A DNA stretch of 32,053 nucleotides, taken from positions 1 to 32,053 of the forward strand of contig JAPDIY010000004.1 in the NCBI GenBank assembly GCA_029259335.1, given 5' to 3'. The position numbers and the translations under genes were made by a program. Positions within the stretch are counted from its first letter, which is position 1. The number at the start of each line of letters is the position of its first letter. Shown one piece after another: positions 1 through 17,491 of this stretch. This DNA comes from Archaeoglobi archaeon. Its GTDB lineage: Archaea; Halobacteriota; Archaeoglobi; Archaeoglobales; Archaeoglobaceae. The notes below the pieces were generated by a model, which worked only from the letters and a program-made list of their open reading frames with translations, did no database searches and had not been told where the DNA came from.

Positions 1-250
1 CGATAATTCTTGTGTCGTTGTCTATTGGCTTTGGTTCCATTCCGAAGCGTTTTCTCAGGTTTACTATGGTAGTGATCTGCCCACGAAGGTTTATCACTCC
101 CTCTATGAACTCAGGAGCATTGGGGATTGCTGTTATCTCCTCTGCTCTGATTATCTCTTTAACCTGAGAAGTTTCAACTCCGTATCTCTCGTTGCCGAGG
201 TTGAAGATTACTACCTGCAGCGTTGAGCGGGCTGAATCCATACCCTTCAT
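1..250 (-). CDS. cheW: CheW chemotaxis coupling protein, partial (C-terminus lies beyond window start)
   Basis: Minus-strand translation MKGMDSARSTLQVVIFNLGNERYGVETSQVKEIIRAEEITAIPNAPEFIEGVINLRGQITTIVNLRKRFGMEPKPIDNDTRII is nearly identical to the CheW at 3878-4354. Confidence 0.93.
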   Translation of the reverse strand, partial: MKGMDSARSTLQVVIFNLGNERYGVETSQVKEIIRAEEITAIPNAPEFIEGVINLRGQITTIVNLRKRFGMEPKPIDNDTRII

Positions 251-1650: not shown

Positions 1651-1870
1651 AAGAAGAAGTGTAAAACAACAAGTATAAAATTTTCGTGTAACAATATAAT
1701 TTCAGTAAAAAATTTCAGTGTAAAAGTGACGAAATGTAATTTCAGGGTTACAATTTTGCATGTTCTACAGCGTATCTCACTTTAGTATTCTCCATTCGAT
1801 TTCATATTTTATGAAAAAAACTTATCTTGTAAGACGACTAATATTCATCCCCAAGCTGGAGGTGCGAGAA

Positions 1871-2155
1871 GTGCTTGATGTCGAGTTGCATGATAACAGA
1901 TACAGAAGAAGAACGGAGATCCTGAAGATACTGGCAAGAAGTGGTGTCGGTGACATACTCTCCAGCCTTGAAGCCAGCCCTCGTAAATTCTCCCAACTGA
2001 TGTTTGAGACGAAGCTGAACCCGGGAATGCTCAGCAGACACTTAAAAACACTGACAGAGCACTCCATTATAGAGAAAAACTCCGATATCTACGAGCTGAC
2101 TGAAAAAGGCCGCATACTTTTCGAGATTCTTAAAAAAATAAATAAAATATTTTAA
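1871..2155 (+). CDS. Small winged-helix (HTH) transcriptional regulator; start uncertain (1811 ATG or 1871 GTG)
   Basis: RRTEILKILARSGVGDILSSL...FSQLMFETKLNPGMLSRHLKTLTEHSIIEKNSDIYELTEKGRILFEIL resembles archaeal wHTH. GGAGGTG at 1858-1864 is well spaced for GTG 1871. Paralogous to 5676-5978. Confidence 0.8.
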   Translation: MLDVELHDNRYRRRTEILKILARSGVGDILSSLEASPRKFSQLMFETKLNPGMLSRHLKTLTEHSIIEKNSDIYELTEKGRILFEILKKINKIF

Positions 2156-2293: not shown

Positions 2294-3856
2294 GTGAATA
2301 CCGTGACCGAAGTATTGATCTTCAATCTTAACGGCACAAAATGTGGGATTGAGGTACCTCAAATTAAAGAAATTATCAGGACTGAAAGAATAACGGTGAT
2401 TCCTAACACCCCGGATTTCATTGAAGGTGTAATCAATCTTAGAGGCCAAATAATCACAATAATCAATCTCAGGAAACGCCTTGGAATGGAGGCGAAAGGC
2501 ACTGACAGCAGTACATATACTGTAATTCTGGAGGGAAAATGGGGGACTGTGGGTTTGATCGTTGATGACGTTAGCGAAGTAGCGGAGATACCAGCAGAGG
2601 ATGTAACCGCTATACCAAGCATAGAACGTGAAAAGTTCTTCAAAGGTGTCGGGAAACTTCCTGATGAATCGCTGGTTCTCCTCATAGATCCAGAAAAAAT
2701 TTTGCATACCTGCTCACTTGATGCTTCCACAATTCTTAACCTACTGCATGATCCGATAATAATTCACGACGGTAAAAAAATTCTATTCGCCAATCAGAAA
2801 GCATTGGATTATTTCAGATCAGAAGAAGTAAGCGACATCATCGAACTCATTCATCCTGACTACCGACATTCGGCAAGAAACCGGATTGAAAGAGCGTTGA
2901 GGGGTGAGAATGTTGAGCCAGCTGAAGAGCTATTTGTCATGCCGGAAGGAAAGAAAATCTGGTTTGAGGTCAGTCACAACCCGATTCCCGGAGAGAACAT
3001 CATTATTACGAGTGTCTTTAGAGATGTCACCGACAAAAAACTGGTAGAACAAAAAAATACAGTCGATGTGATCGGAGTTGTGAATAGAAACGGAGCATTT
3101 GTATACGCTAATCCACAGATAACTGAGAGTCTCGGGGTTAGTCCAGTTGGAAAATTTCTTTCCGATGTACTTCCCTCAGATACTTCCAAACACGCGCTGC
3201 AGTCTATAAGAAATGCTATAAATGGAAACAAAATCGTTGTTTCCCAAGATGGTAACGAAGGGCGCTTTATCAAATACTACATTCCGCTTAACTCTGCAGA
3301 CGAAAAACATTGTCTAATTCTGTCTCAGGAGAAAACAGATTTCGTAAAACAGAGAATGCTACTCAGAAAGGCAATAGAATTAAATGAGATGATGGCAAAA
3401 GCAAAAAACCGAGAAGAACTGGTAAGAAAAACGGAAGAAATTCTTGCAAACTATAAGACGAGAATTTCCGATCATCCTGAAGACTTAAGTTTCGCCATAA
3501 ACCACAATGGCAGGAGATACGGTCACTTAAACGTAAAATCGGATCTGGATGATGACGAGAAGTATATGTTCAGGATACTTGTAAAAAACCTAGGGTTTGC
3601 GTTAAAATCTATTGAATATAAGGAAGAAAAGGAAAAACTGCTTGAAAAACTCTCGGAGAATATAGAAGTCATAGCATATCTCGTCGACAGGATAAGAAAC
3701 CCGCTTGCAGCAATAATGGGCTATGCTGAGTTCATCGAGAATAAAGAGTTGAAGCAAAAAATAGTTAGTCAGGTTGAGAGAGTTGTCGATATTATTTCCA
3801 AGCTTGATGTTGCTTGGATAAACTCAGAGGAGGTTTTGGAAAAAATTACAAATTAG
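2294..3856 (+). CDS. CheW - PAS - PAS - GAF-like - DHp-like (His replaced by Asp) fusion protein, no HATPase domain
   Basis: N-terminus TEVLIFNLNGTKCGIEVPQIKEIIRTERITVIPNTPDFIEGVINLRGQIITIINLRKRLGM is CheW; two PAS-like segments follow; C-terminus AYLVDRIRNPLAAIMGYAEFIENKEL...; ends at ITN* without N/G boxes. The listed ORF begins at TTG 2204; GTG 2294 or 2303 is more likely. Confidence 0.85.
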   Translation: MNTVTEVLIFNLNGTKCGIEVPQIKEIIRTERITVIPNTPDFIEGVINLRGQIITIINLRKRLGMEAKGTDSSTYTVILEGKWGTVGLIVDDVSEVAEIPAEDVTAIPSIEREKFFKGVGKLPDESLVLLIDPEKILHTCSLDASTILNLLHDPIIIHDGKKILFANQKALDYFRSEEVSDIIELIHPDYRHSARNRIERALRGENVEPAEELFVMPEGKKIWFEVSHNPIPGENIIITSVFRDVTDKKLVEQKNTVDVIGVVNRNGAFVYANPQITESLGVSPVGKFLSDVLPSDTSKHALQSIRNAINGNKIVVSQDGNEGRFIKYYIPLNSADEKHCLILSQEKTDFVKQRMLLRKAIELNEMMAKAKNREELVRKTEEILANYKTRISDHPEDLSFAINHNGRRYGHLNVKSDLDDDEKYMFRILVKNLGFALKSIEYKEEKEKLLEKLSENIEVIAYLVDRIRNPLAAIMGYAEFIENKELKQKIVSQVERVVDIISKLDVAWINSEEVLEKITN

Positions 3857-3877: not shown

Positions 3878-4354
3878 TCACGAAACTGCTGGCAACTCTT
3901 CCTCGCTCAGCACCTTCTCCAGGTCAATCAAAATCAGCAGGCCATCTGGCAGTTTTCCCACGCCTTTAAGGAACTTTGATTCTGTTCTTGAGGTTATTAT
4001 ACTCGGAAGCTCATCGATGTTTTCCTTCGAGAGGTACTTCACCTCCGTTACGGTGTCAACCATCATCCCTATGGTGTTTCCTTCGTTCTCAAACACGATA
4101 ATTCTCGTGTCGTTGTCTATTGGCTTTGGTTCCATTCCGAATCGCTTTCTCAGGTTTATTATTGTTGTAATTTGCCCACGGAGGTTTATCACTCCCTCTA
4201 TGAACTCAGGAGCATTGGGGATTGCTGTTATCTCCTCTGCTCTGATTATCTCTTTGACCTGAGAAGTTTCAACTCCGTATCTCTCGTTGCCGAGGTTGAA
4301 GATTACAACCTGTATCGTGGAGTTCTGAGAGTCCATCTGGAACATTAGCATCAC
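3878..4354 (-). CDS. cheW: CheW chemotaxis coupling protein
   Basis: STIQVVIFNLGNERYGVETSQVKEIIRAEEITAIPNAPEFIEGVINLRGQITTIINLRKRFG, canonical CheW. Confidence 0.96.
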   Translation of the reverse strand: MMLMFQMDSQNSTIQVVIFNLGNERYGVETSQVKEIIRAEEITAIPNAPEFIEGVINLRGQITTIINLRKRFGMEPKPIDNDTRIIVFENEGNTIGMMVDTVTEVKYLSKENIDELPSIITSRTESKFLKGVGKLPDGLLILIDLEKVLSEEELPAVS

Positions 4355-5675: not shown

Positions 5676-5978
5676 TCAAAGCGCATTCACGACTTCCAGT
5701 AAAATACGGAGTACCTGCTCACCTTTTGAAGTTAAAATGTACTTCCCCCCATTTTTGCTGACTATGCTGTGGGTTATAAGAACTTTTAGCAGTTTATTCA
5801 GAACGCTCGGACTCAGCTTAGATCCAAACATTATTTCCGTAAATCCTGCAGGATTTCTACTTAAAACTACCAGAATTTTAAGCGACCCGGGATGTGTTAC
5901 GGCTTTATAAGCTTCCAGCTTCCCGTCAATGTCCTCTATACTGAACATAACTTTCCTAGTAAGTCGATTAAGGTACAT
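5676..5978 (-). CDS. Small winged-helix transcriptional regulator (paralogue of 1871-2155); start may be 5948
   Basis: FTEIMFGSKLSPSVLNKLLKVLITHSIVSKNGGKYILTSKGEQVLRIL aligns with FSQLMFETKLNPGMLSRHLKTLTEHSIIEKNSDIYELTEKGRILFEIL. Confidence 0.8.
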   Translation of the reverse strand: MYLNRLTRKVMFSIEDIDGKLEAYKAVTHPGSLKILVVLSRNPAGFTEIMFGSKLSPSVLNKLLKVLITHSIVSKNGGKYILTSKGEQVLRILLEVVNAL

Positions 5979-6086: not shown

Positions 6087-6275
6087 ATGGAAAAAGAGAG
6101 GAAGGATGTAATAGTCTCTTTTAGGATTCCCGAATATCTTAAGTCGGAAATGGAGAAGATAGATATTAACTGGAGCGAGTTCCTTCGGGAGAAAGTGGAG
6201 GAGAAAATAAAGCTCGAAAGAATGAAAAACGTATGGTCGGAAATAGAAGCTATAAGAGACCTGATTCAGCGGTGA
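6087..6275 (+). CDS. vapB: VapB-type antitoxin (ribbon-helix-helix-like), start ATG 6087
   Basis: MEKERKDVIVSFRIPEYLKSEMEKIDINWSEFLREKVEEKIKLERMKNVWSEIEAIRDLIQR; overlaps the PIN gene by TGATG. Confidence 0.85.
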   Translation: MEKERKDVIVSFRIPEYLKSEMEKIDINWSEFLREKVEEKIKLERMKNVWSEIEAIRDLIQR

Positions 6276-6697
6276 TGGGTGTGATAGCCGATGCGTCGGT
6301 TGTCTACGAATTACTTTTCGGTAAGCAAAACGGTGAATACCAAAAGCTCAAAGAGATGATCACTGATGGAAAAATAACGCTGAGAATTCCCGATACAGTC
6401 AGATACGAAATTTTCGAGACTATTATAAAGAAGAGGGTCGAGCCGAAATACCTTCAACGATTACTTTCTCTTATCACCCAATTCTTGGAATGTGTAACTG
6501 TTGAGATGAATGTCGACCAGCTTTCAAAAGCTGCTGAGCTGTGTAAAAAGCTGGAAGTAAACCTGTCGTCTGCAGCGTGCCTGATCCTCGCAACCACATT
6601 CGGTGAGTTATACGTTACAGCCGATACCTCAGTCGCGGATAAGCTAAAAAAGAATGGATATCCTGTCCTCCACATTAAGGAGCTCTTCTCTATTTAG
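6275..6697 (+). CDS. vapC: VapC-type PIN-domain ribonuclease toxin
   Basis: MGVIADASVVYELLFG...RYEIFETI...YVTADTSVADKL keeps PIN acidic residues; start codon overlaps the vapB stop. Confidence 0.9.
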   Translation: MGVIADASVVYELLFGKQNGEYQKLKEMITDGKITLRIPDTVRYEIFETIIKKRVEPKYLQRLLSLITQFLECVTVEMNVDQLSKAAELCKKLEVNLSSAACLILATTFGELYVTADTSVADKLKKNGYPVLHIKELFSI

Positions 6698-7496: not shown

Positions 7497-7963
7497 AATT
7501 CACCACCCTTGCTGTACTTTACAAGCATTCTTCCATCGTTTGTGAAGAAATAAACAGTTCTCCCCTGATTTCCACCTATGTCTTCCGACACGAGCCTTAT
7601 CCCGTAGTCCTTCAATACTAACTTTACAGCCTCTGCATTCCTGTCCCCTATTTTTAACATATCCATCGTCATGTGCTTGAATATCTGCGCCCCTCCAGCC
7701 ATCTTTGCAATAACCCTCTTTCTGTCACTCCCGAGTCTTTCCATTGCCTCCATCATCATCTCCACAGCATGATCGGCGTATTTGGCACTCCTCTTCGTGC
7801 CGTTATTGGATTGCGGAAGCATGACATGGGCTAAGCCGCCAACTTTGATTACTGGATCGTAGAGAGCGATGCCTATGCACGAGCCAAGGCCAATTGTTTT
7901 CAGAACTGCACCCTTCGCTACTCTGAACTCGCCGACACCCACCAGTATCTCGTTGCTCATCAT
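7487..7963 (-). CDS. cheD: CheD receptor deamidase
   Basis: LKTIGLGSCIGIALYDPVIKVGGLAHVMLP with catalytic Cys/His; KMAGGAQIF. Confidence 0.97.
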   Translation of the reverse strand: MMSNEILVGVGEFRVAKGAVLKTIGLGSCIGIALYDPVIKVGGLAHVMLPQSNNGTKRSAKYADHAVEMMMEAMERLGSDRKRVIAKMAGGAQIFKHMTMDMLKIGDRNAEAVKLVLKDYGIRLVSEDIGGNQGRTVYFFTNDGRMLVKYSKGGELWI

Positions 7964-8568
7964 TCCACCATTCCGAGCAGCTGGAAGATGTAGTTCACAA
8001 ACCTCTCATTCGGAACCAGCATCACGAGGATTTCTATCTCATCTTCACTCTCTTCAAGTTTCGTCTCGAATACAACTACGTAATCACTTTTATCCGCCAG
8101 CTGAGAGACTATGGCATCTATAACAGCTATCGCAAAATCTCTCCCGAAGCTCGGTGGGGTTGGGATTAGGGTTACTCCAAGCATTTCTGCTGTAGCATCG
8201 CAGAATGCCGAAGACAGAATGTTTCCTATCTCCATCAGTGTCGAATCCGCCATCTCCTCATCACTGCTGTCTCCAAGAAGGATTTCTACCAATTTCTGCG
8301 ACGATTCTTCCGGGAACGTTATGTACAGGAATCCTGCCTGTCCGTTTTCGATGTCATCTAGCCCTGTCACAACTCCAGCAACCATCTTCTCCGCATCGAT
8401 AACTTTGTGCAACTCCTGAATTCTGACTACCATTGCATTCGGCACGCTCATCTCGATCGTCCTGCCGAGCATCTGGGAAAGAGACGTTGCTGCCTTGCCA
8501 ACTCCAATATTCCCCAACTCCTTAAGCGCATCAAGTTCCACCTCGCCCAGCTCCTCAATACTACGCAA
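7960..8568 (-). CDS. cheC: CheC CheY-P phosphatase; probable TTG start at 8568
   Basis: ELGNIGVGKAATSLSQMLG and MEIGNILSSAFCDATAEMLG carry both E-N active-site motifs; GGAGGTGA precedes the TTG. The listed ORF extends to 8628. Confidence 0.95.
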   Translation of the reverse strand: MRSIEELGEVELDALKELGNIGVGKAATSLSQMLGRTIEMSVPNAMVVRIQELHKVIDAEKMVAGVVTGLDDIENGQAGFLYITFPEESSQKLVEILLGDSSDEEMADSTLMEIGNILSSAFCDATAEMLGVTLIPTPPSFGRDFAIAVIDAIVSQLADKSDYVVVFETKLEESEDEIEILVMLVPNERFVNYIFQLLGMVE

Positions 8569-10528
8569 GTCTATCACCTCCCAACAAACTCGATATATCC
8601 AAAATTGGCACGACCCTACCATCACCAAGAATTGTTACCCCGCTAAACCCTCTTATTTTAGCCAAATATCCCGTTAAGGGCTTAATAACAATTTCCTGCT
8701 GTTCGGCAATTGTATCCGCTATTAGGGCATACCTCTCCCCCTCCCTCTCCACAATTATCCCAACTTCCCTCTCCGGCTTACCATCCACAACGTTGAATAG
8801 ATCTCTCAGCTTGAAGGCAGGAACAAGCTTTCCACGGACAATCAAAAATGGATTACCATGGATTACTTTCCAGTTGTCCTCCGTGACATAGAGAGCTTCA
8901 ATAACGCTCGATATCGGTATCGCATACGTCTCATGACCGACCTTTACGAGCAGCGATTTTATTATCGCCACAGTAGGCGGAAGATGTATCCTTATCTTCG
9001 TTCCTTCACCCTTTTTGGAGCTGATTCTCACACTTCCTCCAAGCTTTTCAACAGTTGTCTTAACAACATCCATTCCCACTCCTCTCCCAGAGATCTCAGT
9101 CGCTTTATCTTTCGTCGAGAAACCGGGAGCGAAAATCAACATCTTCAGCTCATCCTCGCTCATCGACTCTGCCTCAGCCGGAGTGATTATTCCTTTCTCT
9201 ACGGCCTTCTGCTTGATTTTCTCAACATCTAACCCTCTTCCATCGTCCTCAAGCTCTATTATGATGTTGTTCTTCTCCCTCCATGCAGCCAGTCTTATCC
9301 TGCCAACTTCACTCTTTCCAGCAGCTTTTCTCTCCTCAGGAGATTCGATGCCGTGATCAACAGCATTTCTGACAAGGTGTATGAGTGGATCACTTATCTC
9401 ATCGAGAACGGTTCTATCAAGCTCAGTATCAAGACCCTCCATCACAAACTCAACTTTCTTTCCAAGCTTTCTTGCCAGATCCCTGACCATTCGTGGGAAT
9501 TTGTTGAACACCCTCTCGACTTTCACCATCCTTATCTGCATTATCTCGTCCTGAAGACTCGTGATTGACTTATCCATTATTGAAACTGCTTCTTTCAATT
9601 CAGGGATGTCGTATTCGGTTGCAATCTGCAAAAGTCTTCCCTTACTTATAACGAGTTCACCGACAAGATTCATTATCGTATCAAGCTGAGCTATGTTAAC
9701 TCTAATGCTCTCAAATTTCCTGTCTTTTTTCTTGAGTAGTTTGCCCCTTCCCTCTTCCTTTACCTCTTTAGCCTTATCCCACTCTGTTTCCCCCTCTCTG
9801 ACCTCTCCAGCCTCAATTTCGCCTTTTACCTCAGTCTTCTGCTCCTCAAGTAGAGAAACTTCAAATCTGTCAACTTCAGCAATCTTACTCATCACATCCT
9901 CTATCTTGCTAACATCAGGAGCTTTGATGAAAACGGTAAAATGACCGTCAAAATCTTCTTTTTCCATGTCATTTTCGTCAGGTATAACAGCCAAAATCTC
10001 AGATACCTCGCTTAGATTTTCGACAACAAGAGCTGCTCTTACACTTTTCATTATGCAATCTTCGCTCAGATAAACATCAACCCTTATGTTTGCATTTCCA
10101 AAACTCTCCTTACTCAAATCTACTTCCCTAACCTGTTCCTTATCTTTTTTCTCCTGCATGAACTCGCTCAGATCTGAGATGATGTCGGAAACGTTTATAT
10201 CATCACTGTCCTCCTCCTCTATCTTGTTTATCATTTCCTCTATGGCATCCACAGCTTTCAGCATCACATCCACGATCTCACTGGTGATCTCAATTTCCCC
10301 ATCCCTAACTTTACCCATTGCACTCTCAAGCTTGTGACAGAGCTCCTCAAGGTTCTTGTACCCCATAAAACCGGCCATACCCTTGATTGTATGCGCTACC
10401 CTGAATATCTCGTTTATAGCATTGAGATCGCCATTCTCAAGCTTGATGAAATTCTGATTCATCAGATCAAGATACTCTCTTGCTTCCTGAATGAACTCCT
10501 GCTTGTACTCTTCCATATCACCCTCCAT
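8561..10528 (-). CDS. cheA: CheA histidine kinase
   Basis: P1 Hpt FRVAHTIKGMAGFMG; P4 LVRNAVDHGIE, DDGRGLD, GRGVGMDVV; C-terminal CheW-like P5. Confidence 0.98.
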   Translation of the reverse strand: MEGDMEEYKQEFIQEAREYLDLMNQNFIKLENGDLNAINEIFRVAHTIKGMAGFMGYKNLEELCHKLESAMGKVRDGEIEITSEIVDVMLKAVDAIEEMINKIEEEDSDDINVSDIISDLSEFMQEKKDKEQVREVDLSKESFGNANIRVDVYLSEDCIMKSVRAALVVENLSEVSEILAVIPDENDMEKEDFDGHFTVFIKAPDVSKIEDVMSKIAEVDRFEVSLLEEQKTEVKGEIEAGEVREGETEWDKAKEVKEEGRGKLLKKKDRKFESIRVNIAQLDTIMNLVGELVISKGRLLQIATEYDIPELKEAVSIMDKSITSLQDEIMQIRMVKVERVFNKFPRMVRDLARKLGKKVEFVMEGLDTELDRTVLDEISDPLIHLVRNAVDHGIESPEERKAAGKSEVGRIRLAAWREKNNIIIELEDDGRGLDVEKIKQKAVEKGIITPAEAESMSEDELKMLIFAPGFSTKDKATEISGRGVGMDVVKTTVEKLGGSVRISSKKGEGTKIRIHLPPTVAIIKSLLVKVGHETYAIPISSVIEALYVTEDNWKVIHGNPFLIVRGKLVPAFKLRDLFNVVDGKPEREVGIIVEREGERYALIADTIAEQQEIVIKPLTGYLAKIRGFSGVTILGDGRVVPILDISSLLGGDRLA

Positions 10529-11573: not shown

Positions 11574-11939
11574 CTAACTCATTCCAGCAACCTTCTTCAG
11601 TTCCTCAATGACCTTCGGTGCTTGGAATGGTTTCACTATGTATCCCTTGGCCCCCAGCTTGATTGCCGTCTTCACCATCTGTTCCTGCCCAACAGCCGTA
11701 CACATCACCACTTTTGCTTGTGGATCCATCTTCTTTATCTCCTTCAACGCCTCTATTCCGTTCATCTCCGGCATAACGATATCCATTGTAACCACATCCG
11801 GCTTCAACTGTTTGTAAAGCTCCACTGCCTGCTTTCCGTTTTCCGCTTCCCCTACTATATCAAAACCTCCCGAAAACAAGATATTTCTCAAAAGCTTCCT
11901 CATAAAGGCCGTATCATCCACAATCAAAACTTTCGGCAT
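11574..11939 (-). CDS. cheY: CheY response regulator
   Basis: MPKVLIVDDTAFMRKLL...DVVTMDIVMPEMNGIEAL...KGYIVKPF stand-alone receiver. Confidence 0.97.
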   Translation of the reverse strand: MPKVLIVDDTAFMRKLLRNILFSGGFDIVGEAENGKQAVELYKQLKPDVVTMDIVMPEMNGIEALKEIKKMDPQAKVVMCTAVGQEQMVKTAIKLGAKGYIVKPFQAPKVIEELKKVAGMS

Positions 11940-16675: not shown

Positions 16676-16834
16676 ATGAAATCGATAGATGCCAGCTTCG
16701 CAGCCATTGCGGTATTTTCAGCGGTAATGCTGACCTACAGATGGCTGTCGCTGTACGGGAAAACAGATTACGTGATAAACTTTTATGCCGGCATGCTTGT
16801 TGCCGCCATAGCTTTGCTTATCTTACGAAGATAG
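16676..16834 (+). CDS. Putative 52-aa small membrane protein (two hydrophobic segments)
   Basis: ATG..TAG reading MKSIDASFAAIAVFSAVMLTYRWLSLYGKTDYVINFYAGMLVAAIALLILRR; absent from the supplied ORF track (apparently a 60-aa cutoff); T/A-rich CTTTTATCC about 25 bp upstream. Confidence 0.5.
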   Translation: MKSIDASFAAIAVFSAVMLTYRWLSLYGKTDYVINFYAGMLVAAIALLILRR

Positions 16835-17491
16835 GCACTCGTATATCTTCTTGGACTCGATTTCAGCATCCGATAGCTGATCGAGAACCTCTTTAATTTT
16901 CCTTGCGCTCGTCTTTATCATCTCAAACCCCTTTCTCGTATCGATTTCATCTGCAATCTCTAAAACACCGGTAATAACCGACAGAGGATTTCTGAGTCGA
17001 TCCGATAGAAATTGAAACTGTTCGAGGTTTTCTTTGAGTCTCAATAGCACTAATTCTCGCTCAATCCACATTTCGAGATTTCTAATCGCCCTCGAAAGAA
17101 CAAGTACCATATCTTTCAAGATCTGAATGATTTCTTCATCAGCCTCCTTCAGGAAGATGTACACCGAAGATCCTTCTGTGATGGGTAGAGTGAGAAGATA
17201 CTTGTGTTTCACACCTTTACAACCGCAAGCTTTCGCATTTACTATACTGAAAACTTTTGGATGATATTTTAAATAATTGCAGCCCATTACGTCTTCATCC
17301 ATGCGATAGTGTTCACCCGTTTTATCAGACACCACAACGGCTGTGCAGCTTTCGTTTTCAAATACTTGGTCACAGAAAAAATTTATCATCTTCTCTCGTT
17401 TGTCGAACATCCACACATTGCTCGAAAACGTAAACGCTGTAAAAAGTAAATCGTTCATTCGCTTTAAACTTTCGAGGTCACTGTACATCAT
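16823..17491 (-). CDS. GAF-like - DHp-like (His replaced by Asp) protein, no kinase domain
   Basis: ENLEQFQFLSDRLRNPLSVITGVLEIADEIDTRKGFEMIKTSARKIKEVLDQLSDAEIESKKIYECLSS*; start overlaps the stop of the upstream gene (17488/17491). Confidence 0.75.
   Translation of the reverse strand: MMYSDLESLKRMNDLLFTAFTFSSNVWMFDKREKMINFFCDQVFENESCTAVVVSDKTGEHYRMDEDVMGCNYLKYHPKVFSIVNAKACGCKGVKHKYLLTLPITEGSSVYIFLKEADEEIIQILKDMVLVLSRAIRNLEMWIERELVLLRLKENLEQFQFLSDRLRNPLSVITGVLEIADEIDTRKGFEMIKTSARKIKEVLDQLSDAEIESKKIYECLSS

Follow-up and report, generated by a model that had tools for sequence, protein, structure and literature searches.

The gene at positions 2294–3856 of the window (the whole stretch analysed, 32,053 nucleotides from an Archaeoglobi archaeon) encodes a CheW domain fused to two PAS domains, a GAF-like segment and a C-terminal DHp domain with Asp in place of the phospho-accepting His. 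Kinase-less Asp-type DHp domains are the usual output module in a large family of archaeal proteins; the rare part of this protein is the fusion to CheW. Our leading proposal, put forward tentatively, is that the fusion acts as a receiver phosphatase that is regulated by its PAS domains and docks on the chemoreceptor array.

Gene and domain architecture

The coding sequence starts with GTG at 2294 and stops with TAG, the last base of which is 3856, so the coordinates of the preliminary description are correct. TTG at 2204 was considered as an alternative upstream start and was not favoured, since a stop codon stands in the orthologous frame directly before the CheW domain. The features of the gene are as follows.

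2294..3856, +, CDS, 520 aa, CheW-PAS-PAS-GAF-like-DHp(Asp), without HATPase (open frame, Pfam, orthologue, AlphaFold2)
2309..2707, +, CheW domain, residues 6–138 (Pfam PF01584, E 8.6e-35, above cut-off)
2750..3034, +, PAS domain 1, residues 153–247 (PF13426, PAS_9, E 3.2e-10, above cut-off)
3056..3337, +, PAS domain 2, residues 255–348 (PF08448, PAS_4, E 1.3e-7, above cut-off)
3338..3619, +, shortened GAF-like module and start of the signalling helix, residues 349–442
3620..3847, +, DHp (HisKA-like) two-helix hairpin, residues 443–518 (PF00512, model)
3686..3688, +, codon GAC, Asp465, phospho-His position (aligns with EnvZ H243)
3698..3700, +, codon AAC, Asn469, HisKA phosphatase position, +4 (aligns with EnvZ T247)

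The order CheW, PAS, PAS proposed earlier was thus recovered with all three Pfam models. With a CheW domain over the cut-off, the protein is a probable CheW-domain coupling protein. This domain matched PDB CheW chains with E-values as low as 7e-20, and its E26 and R50 align with E38 and R62 of E. coli CheW, both residues being conserved. In the full-length AlphaFold2 model the CheW part had a pLDDT <50, with few CheW rows in the alignment; the assignment stands on sequence evidence, and no structural claim is made for it. Structural matches of PAS 1 were PAS/LOV domains (Z 13–14), and the top match of PAS 2 was 3fc7 (Z 15.2). Residues 349–442, modelled as strands followed by a long helix, gave no Pfam GAF match in the fusion protein itself; GAF or GAF_2 models matched the C-terminal halves of 14–15 of 26 relatives, and the earlier label "GAF-like" is fair for this shortened module. 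Pfam detected no HATPase, CheZ, CheC, CheX or CheR-like SAM-binding domain in the protein.

The Pfam HisKA match covered residues 458–511 (E 5.5e-10, above cut-off). AlphaFold2 predicted a helix at 420–478, a short turn and a helix at 484–519, with pLDDT around 90 or above; the tail modelled alone had a mean pLDDT of 91.5. The C-terminus is thus predicted to be a DHp-like antiparallel two-helix hairpin, as the preliminary description had supposed. In Foldseek searches with the tail, the DHp domains of ERS1, EnvZ and CpxA were among the top matches, none of them significant; generic helical hairpins dominated (Foldseek/VIA), and the fold search does not discriminate.

An alignment of the H-box with EnvZ, made with a profile of relatives, placed Asp465 at His243, Arg466 at Asp244 (+1) and Asn469 at T247 (+4). 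Of the features of a HisKA sensor histidine kinase, the phospho-accepting His and HATPase_c are both absent, which bears out the earlier reading on these two points. What the preliminary description observed is correct in all its principal points. Judged by the alignment, the Asp-type DHp lacks both kinase residues (the His and the acid at +1) and retains a putative phosphatase amide at +4.

Conservation and integrity of the fusion

A second genome, Archaeoglobus sp. GB_MAG2_100, encodes an orthologue with 66% identity. It has 431 residues and keeps CheW, PAS 1, the GAF-like piece and the Asp-type DHp; PAS 2 is missing as an alignment gap. Both loci share one gene order (MCP, winged-helix gene, fusion, convergent cheW, MCP), and the orthologue stops at almost the same point ahead of that cheW. 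Dozens of paralogues share this end point. Across the domains of the fusion pair, pN was 0.12–0.21 and pS 0.55–0.78, giving a dN/dS of about 0.1 with dS near saturation; every domain of the fusion is under strong purifying selection. Conservation within the pair is highest in the DHp (77% identity vs. 60% for CheW).

The CheW-PAS-DHp fusion was found in only two of the 55 Archaeoglobaceae genomes, with no third among them, and no further fusion appeared among the top-scoring CheW matches listed for 196 genomes of the phylum. This rarity could fit a decayed or chimeric gene, that is, a truncated kinase or an assembly artefact, and the preliminary description had named loss of a downstream HATPase by frameshift or assembly error as one of two findings that would refute its reading. 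The syntenic orthologue, which comes from a separately assembled genome, the shared end point, the paralogues and the purifying selection exclude frameshift, truncation and assembly error, and together with the family-wide architecture they make a decayed or chimeric gene exceedingly improbable.

Asp-type DHp domains in archaea

We examined 101 Pfam HisKA matches in Archaeoglobaceae with their surroundings; the Pfam model itself prefers His. Sixty-three of the 101 were of the Asp-type, with a stop 57–78 residues after the start of the HisKA match. The other 38 were of the His-type with a longer tail, which was at least 188 residues in 37 of the 38 and carried ATPase motifs in most. The association of Asp-type with short and His-type with long tails gave a Fisher p of about 1e-28, a value to be read with the fact that many loci are related and the counts are not independent. 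Eighty loci collected with the pattern L[VAL]DxIRNPL were left out of this count, since the pattern presets Asp. In the domain tree the Asp-type and His-type sequences formed two separate clades (support 0.91 and 0.97). The short-tailed HisKA proteins that were checked in genome G005, which we take to be A. fulgidus DSM 4304, carry Asp.

Within the Archaeoglobaceae Asp group, position 0 was D (63/63), +1 was variable (R/K/H/E/Q/A), +3 was R (63/63), +4 was N in 62 of 63 and T in one, and +5 was P (62/63). The H-box of the His-type DHp of the same genomes is RHDxxN. In three further loci Lys stands for Arg at +3, with D and N kept; two of these also have Ala for Pro at +5. Twenty methanogen-like matches from other families of the phylum had Asp at position 0 in all cases (20/20, mildly biased by selection with an Asp-containing profile), His at +1 in 18 of 20, and Q (12), N (7) or L (1) at +4. 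Asp thus occupies the His position in 83 of 83 relatives (63 Archaeoglobaceae and 20 methanogen), and further Asp-type relatives were found in DHVE2, Methanofastidiosa, Methanosarcina and Heimdallarchaeota. A loss of His peculiar to the fusion protein is rejected; the Asp is family-wide.

The invariance of this Asp might suggest that Asp465 is itself phosphorylated as a receiver-like relay step. The acidic pocket, Lys and Thr/Ser typical of receivers are absent around Asp465, which lies mid-helix in the model and is followed by a variable +1 position, and we regard such a relay as highly improbable. The spacing of Asp at 0 and N/Q at +4 resembles, by analogy, the DxxxQ motif of CheZ and NarX (PMC3510030).

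Gene neighbourhood

Stand-alone receivers outside che clusters numbered 32 in eight complete or near-complete genomes, and 8 of them have an Asp-type gene as a neighbour, against about 1–1.5% expected by chance (p 3e-10 to 2e-6, depending on assumptions and on the collapsing of related genomes; the receiver neighbours were assigned by hand from tables). An operon of genome G005 (L117:2-2560) contains an Asp-type DHp gene, a stand-alone receiver and a complete His-type kinase, each confirmed by Pfam, and at some other loci a receiver is fused to the Asp-type protein. The receiver gene at L070:1685-2119 (G000:C61), which is convergent with an Asp-type gene, carries an internal insertion (VEGVEVDLPTPVMDG region).

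Adjacency and fusion to receivers also fit an Asp-type DHp that binds receivers or kinases non-catalytically, as a receiver sink, a scaffold or a heterodimerising pseudokinase; the pseudokinase ChrS, which heterodimerises with HrrS, is a precedent. Heterodimers are made less likely by the separate clade and different H-box (RHDxxN) of the His-type DHp, and mere binding does not obviously demand the amide at +4. On balance a non-catalytic binder appears improbable.

Around the fusion, the window contains the following chemotaxis-related genes.

1760..2155, +, winged-helix regulator (PF14947), upstream of the fusion, same place in the orthologous locus
3878..4354, −, stand-alone cheW of an MCP-cheW pair, convergent with the fusion
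7960..8628, −, CheC, conventional CheY-P phosphatase of the same cluster (PF04509)
8561..10528, −, CheA, assumed to be the docking partner
11574..11939, −, CheY, stand-alone receiver, assumed to be the target (PF00072, E 3.4e-34)
16823..17491, −, another Asp-type DHp protein in this cluster, without CheW (HisKA 1.6e-6; motif LSDRLRNPL)

The gene at 16823–17491 lies in an archaellum/chemotaxis cluster, near a T2SSF-domain gene and a large PAS-MCP gene. Similar CheW-less Asp-type proteins were found near che genes in G004, G005 (942 kb), G007, G008 and G029. Several other genes of the window were noted. The winged-helix gene at 1760–2155 has a related regulator (PF14947) at 5676–5978 on the minus strand, and the two stand beside two soluble MCP-cheW pairs. 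A cheW at 8–223 (minus strand) is cut by the contig edge; its visible part is 63% identical to the CheW domain of the fusion. A small ORF among the chemotaxis genes at 6233–6697 (plus strand) is PIN-domain-like, and similar ORFs occur near cheR in G004 and G006.

CheW-CheC fusions occur in two further genomes of the phylum (L302:1121-2437 in G047, 439 aa; L318:861-1994 in G084, about 377 aa). These proteins likewise combine CheW with a phosphatase module; CheC replaces PAS-DHp, and no sensor domain intervenes. A multi-PAS protein of G175 (L320:2-1921) ends in CheW, the reverse domain order, and is without DHp.

Proposed function

As the preliminary description had it, CheW would place the fusion in the CheA-receptor array; with E26 and R50 conserved, this location is probable. 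In the mechanism we favour, the N-terminal CheW domain would attach a cytosolic PAS sensor to the chemoreceptor-CheA array, and a dimeric kinase-less DHp would be presented to CheY or another receiver. The amide at +4, one helical turn after the Asp (DxxxN), would act in receiver dephosphorylation. The result would be signal-controlled CheY-P dephosphorylation at the array, like that by CheZ in E. coli. Array docking, receiver binding, phosphatase activity and a PAS ligand are what we infer here. A receiver is favoured as the target because of the conservation of Asp at 0 and N/Q at +4, the receivers encoded next to Asp-type genes, and the CheW-CheC fusions and chemotaxis setting.

Studies of HisKA domains bear on the role of +4. 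The kinase reaction of these domains uses the acid at +1, the phosphatase reaction the residue at +4 (PMC3510030). In CrdS the Asn at +4 alone is needed exclusively for phosphatase activity; the H371A mutant retains most of this activity, still cutting the half-life of the phosphorylated receiver from 53.5 to 2.6 min; E372A behaves as the wild type (PMC3510030). DrBphP is by nature a phosphatase, activated by light and lacking kinase activity; its activity is kept with Q at +4 and lost with E536N at that position. The CrdS mutants and DrBphP are like the fusion in having a HisKA-type DHp in which residue +4 is decisive for phosphatase activity; unlike the fusion, they have their own His (or a mutated His) and a HATPase domain. 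The phosphatase of DrBphP requires ATP, and this need, together with the loss in E536N, means that a DHp without an ATPase domain may be a weak phosphatase.

Other points also weigh against a receiver phosphatase. The cluster already contains CheC, position +4 is Leu in one Asp-type sequence and Thr in another, an Asp near the acidic pocket of the receiver could hinder docking, and a location next to receiver genes is equally compatible with binding and with dephosphorylation.

The next-ranked explanation is a coupling sensor resembling CheWS, in which the PAS signal alters CheA through CheW and the DHp merely dimerises or transmits without catalysis. CheW-fused sensors are known, CheWS of Treponema denticola has been characterised, and CheW-PAS architectures have been listed (PMC10653840). 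As in CheWS, an N-terminal CheW domain would bring an extra sensor module into the array; the sensor of CheWS is CheR-like SAM, and PAS-PAS-DHp is absent from it. The conserved CheW interface residues and the G175 protein, a PAS-PAS-CheW protein without DHp, are consistent with such a sensor. It leaves unexplained the invariant Asp at 0 and N/Q at +4 in CheW-less relatives, as well as the receiver neighbours, and conservation in the fusion is highest in the DHp, not in CheW. We consider it rather unlikely. An MCP-bypassing sensor or a CheA modulator, as suggested in the preliminary description, is possible; the evidence points rather to a receiver (CheY-P).

Relation to known protein classes

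The preliminary description knew of no standard named architecture matching the protein. We likewise did not find the exact fusion described in the literature; its kinase-less tail, on the other hand, falls in a class defined in 2018. As far as the sections describing this class go, Galperin et al. (2018) reported "HisKA, no HATPase" proteins in Archaeoglobi and Methanomicrobia, seven of them in A. fulgidus, and raised phosphatase activity as an intriguing possibility (PMC5847659). N-terminal PAS/GAF domains, a C-terminal HisKA-like domain and the absence of HATPase are common to that class and the fusion. The same sections state the His as conserved, whereas the fusion and 83 of 83 relatives have Asp there, and they do not mention a CheW fusion (PMC5847659). 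By its sequence features, we assign the fusion to an Asp-type variant of the "HisKA, no HATPase" architecture. The His at +1 of methanogen sequences may be the source of the "conserved His" reading.

The motifs of CheZ and CheC/CheX (DxxxQ and ExxN, an acid plus an amide) are analogous to DxxxN/Q of the Asp-type domains, and E. coli keeps its CheZ at the array; CheZ, CheC and CheX belong to other families and have no sequence match to the fusion.

Implications

A wider reading, plausible in our view and somewhat short of an even chance, is that many archaeal "histidine kinases" are sensor-controlled DxxxN/Q receiver phosphatases, with a split between writers (His-type) and erasers (Asp-type), and that one eraser is wired to the array by CheW in two Archaeoglobus species. 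The CheW fusion and the CheW-CheC fusions suggest repeated tethering of a receiver eraser to the archaeal array, for which E. coli CheZ represents another route. If right, this reading would correct the description of the conserved residue of the archaeal class, would help account for the abundance of stand-alone receivers in archaea, and would assign a function, with a catalytic motif that can be tested, to a large archaeal group often misannotated as kinases.
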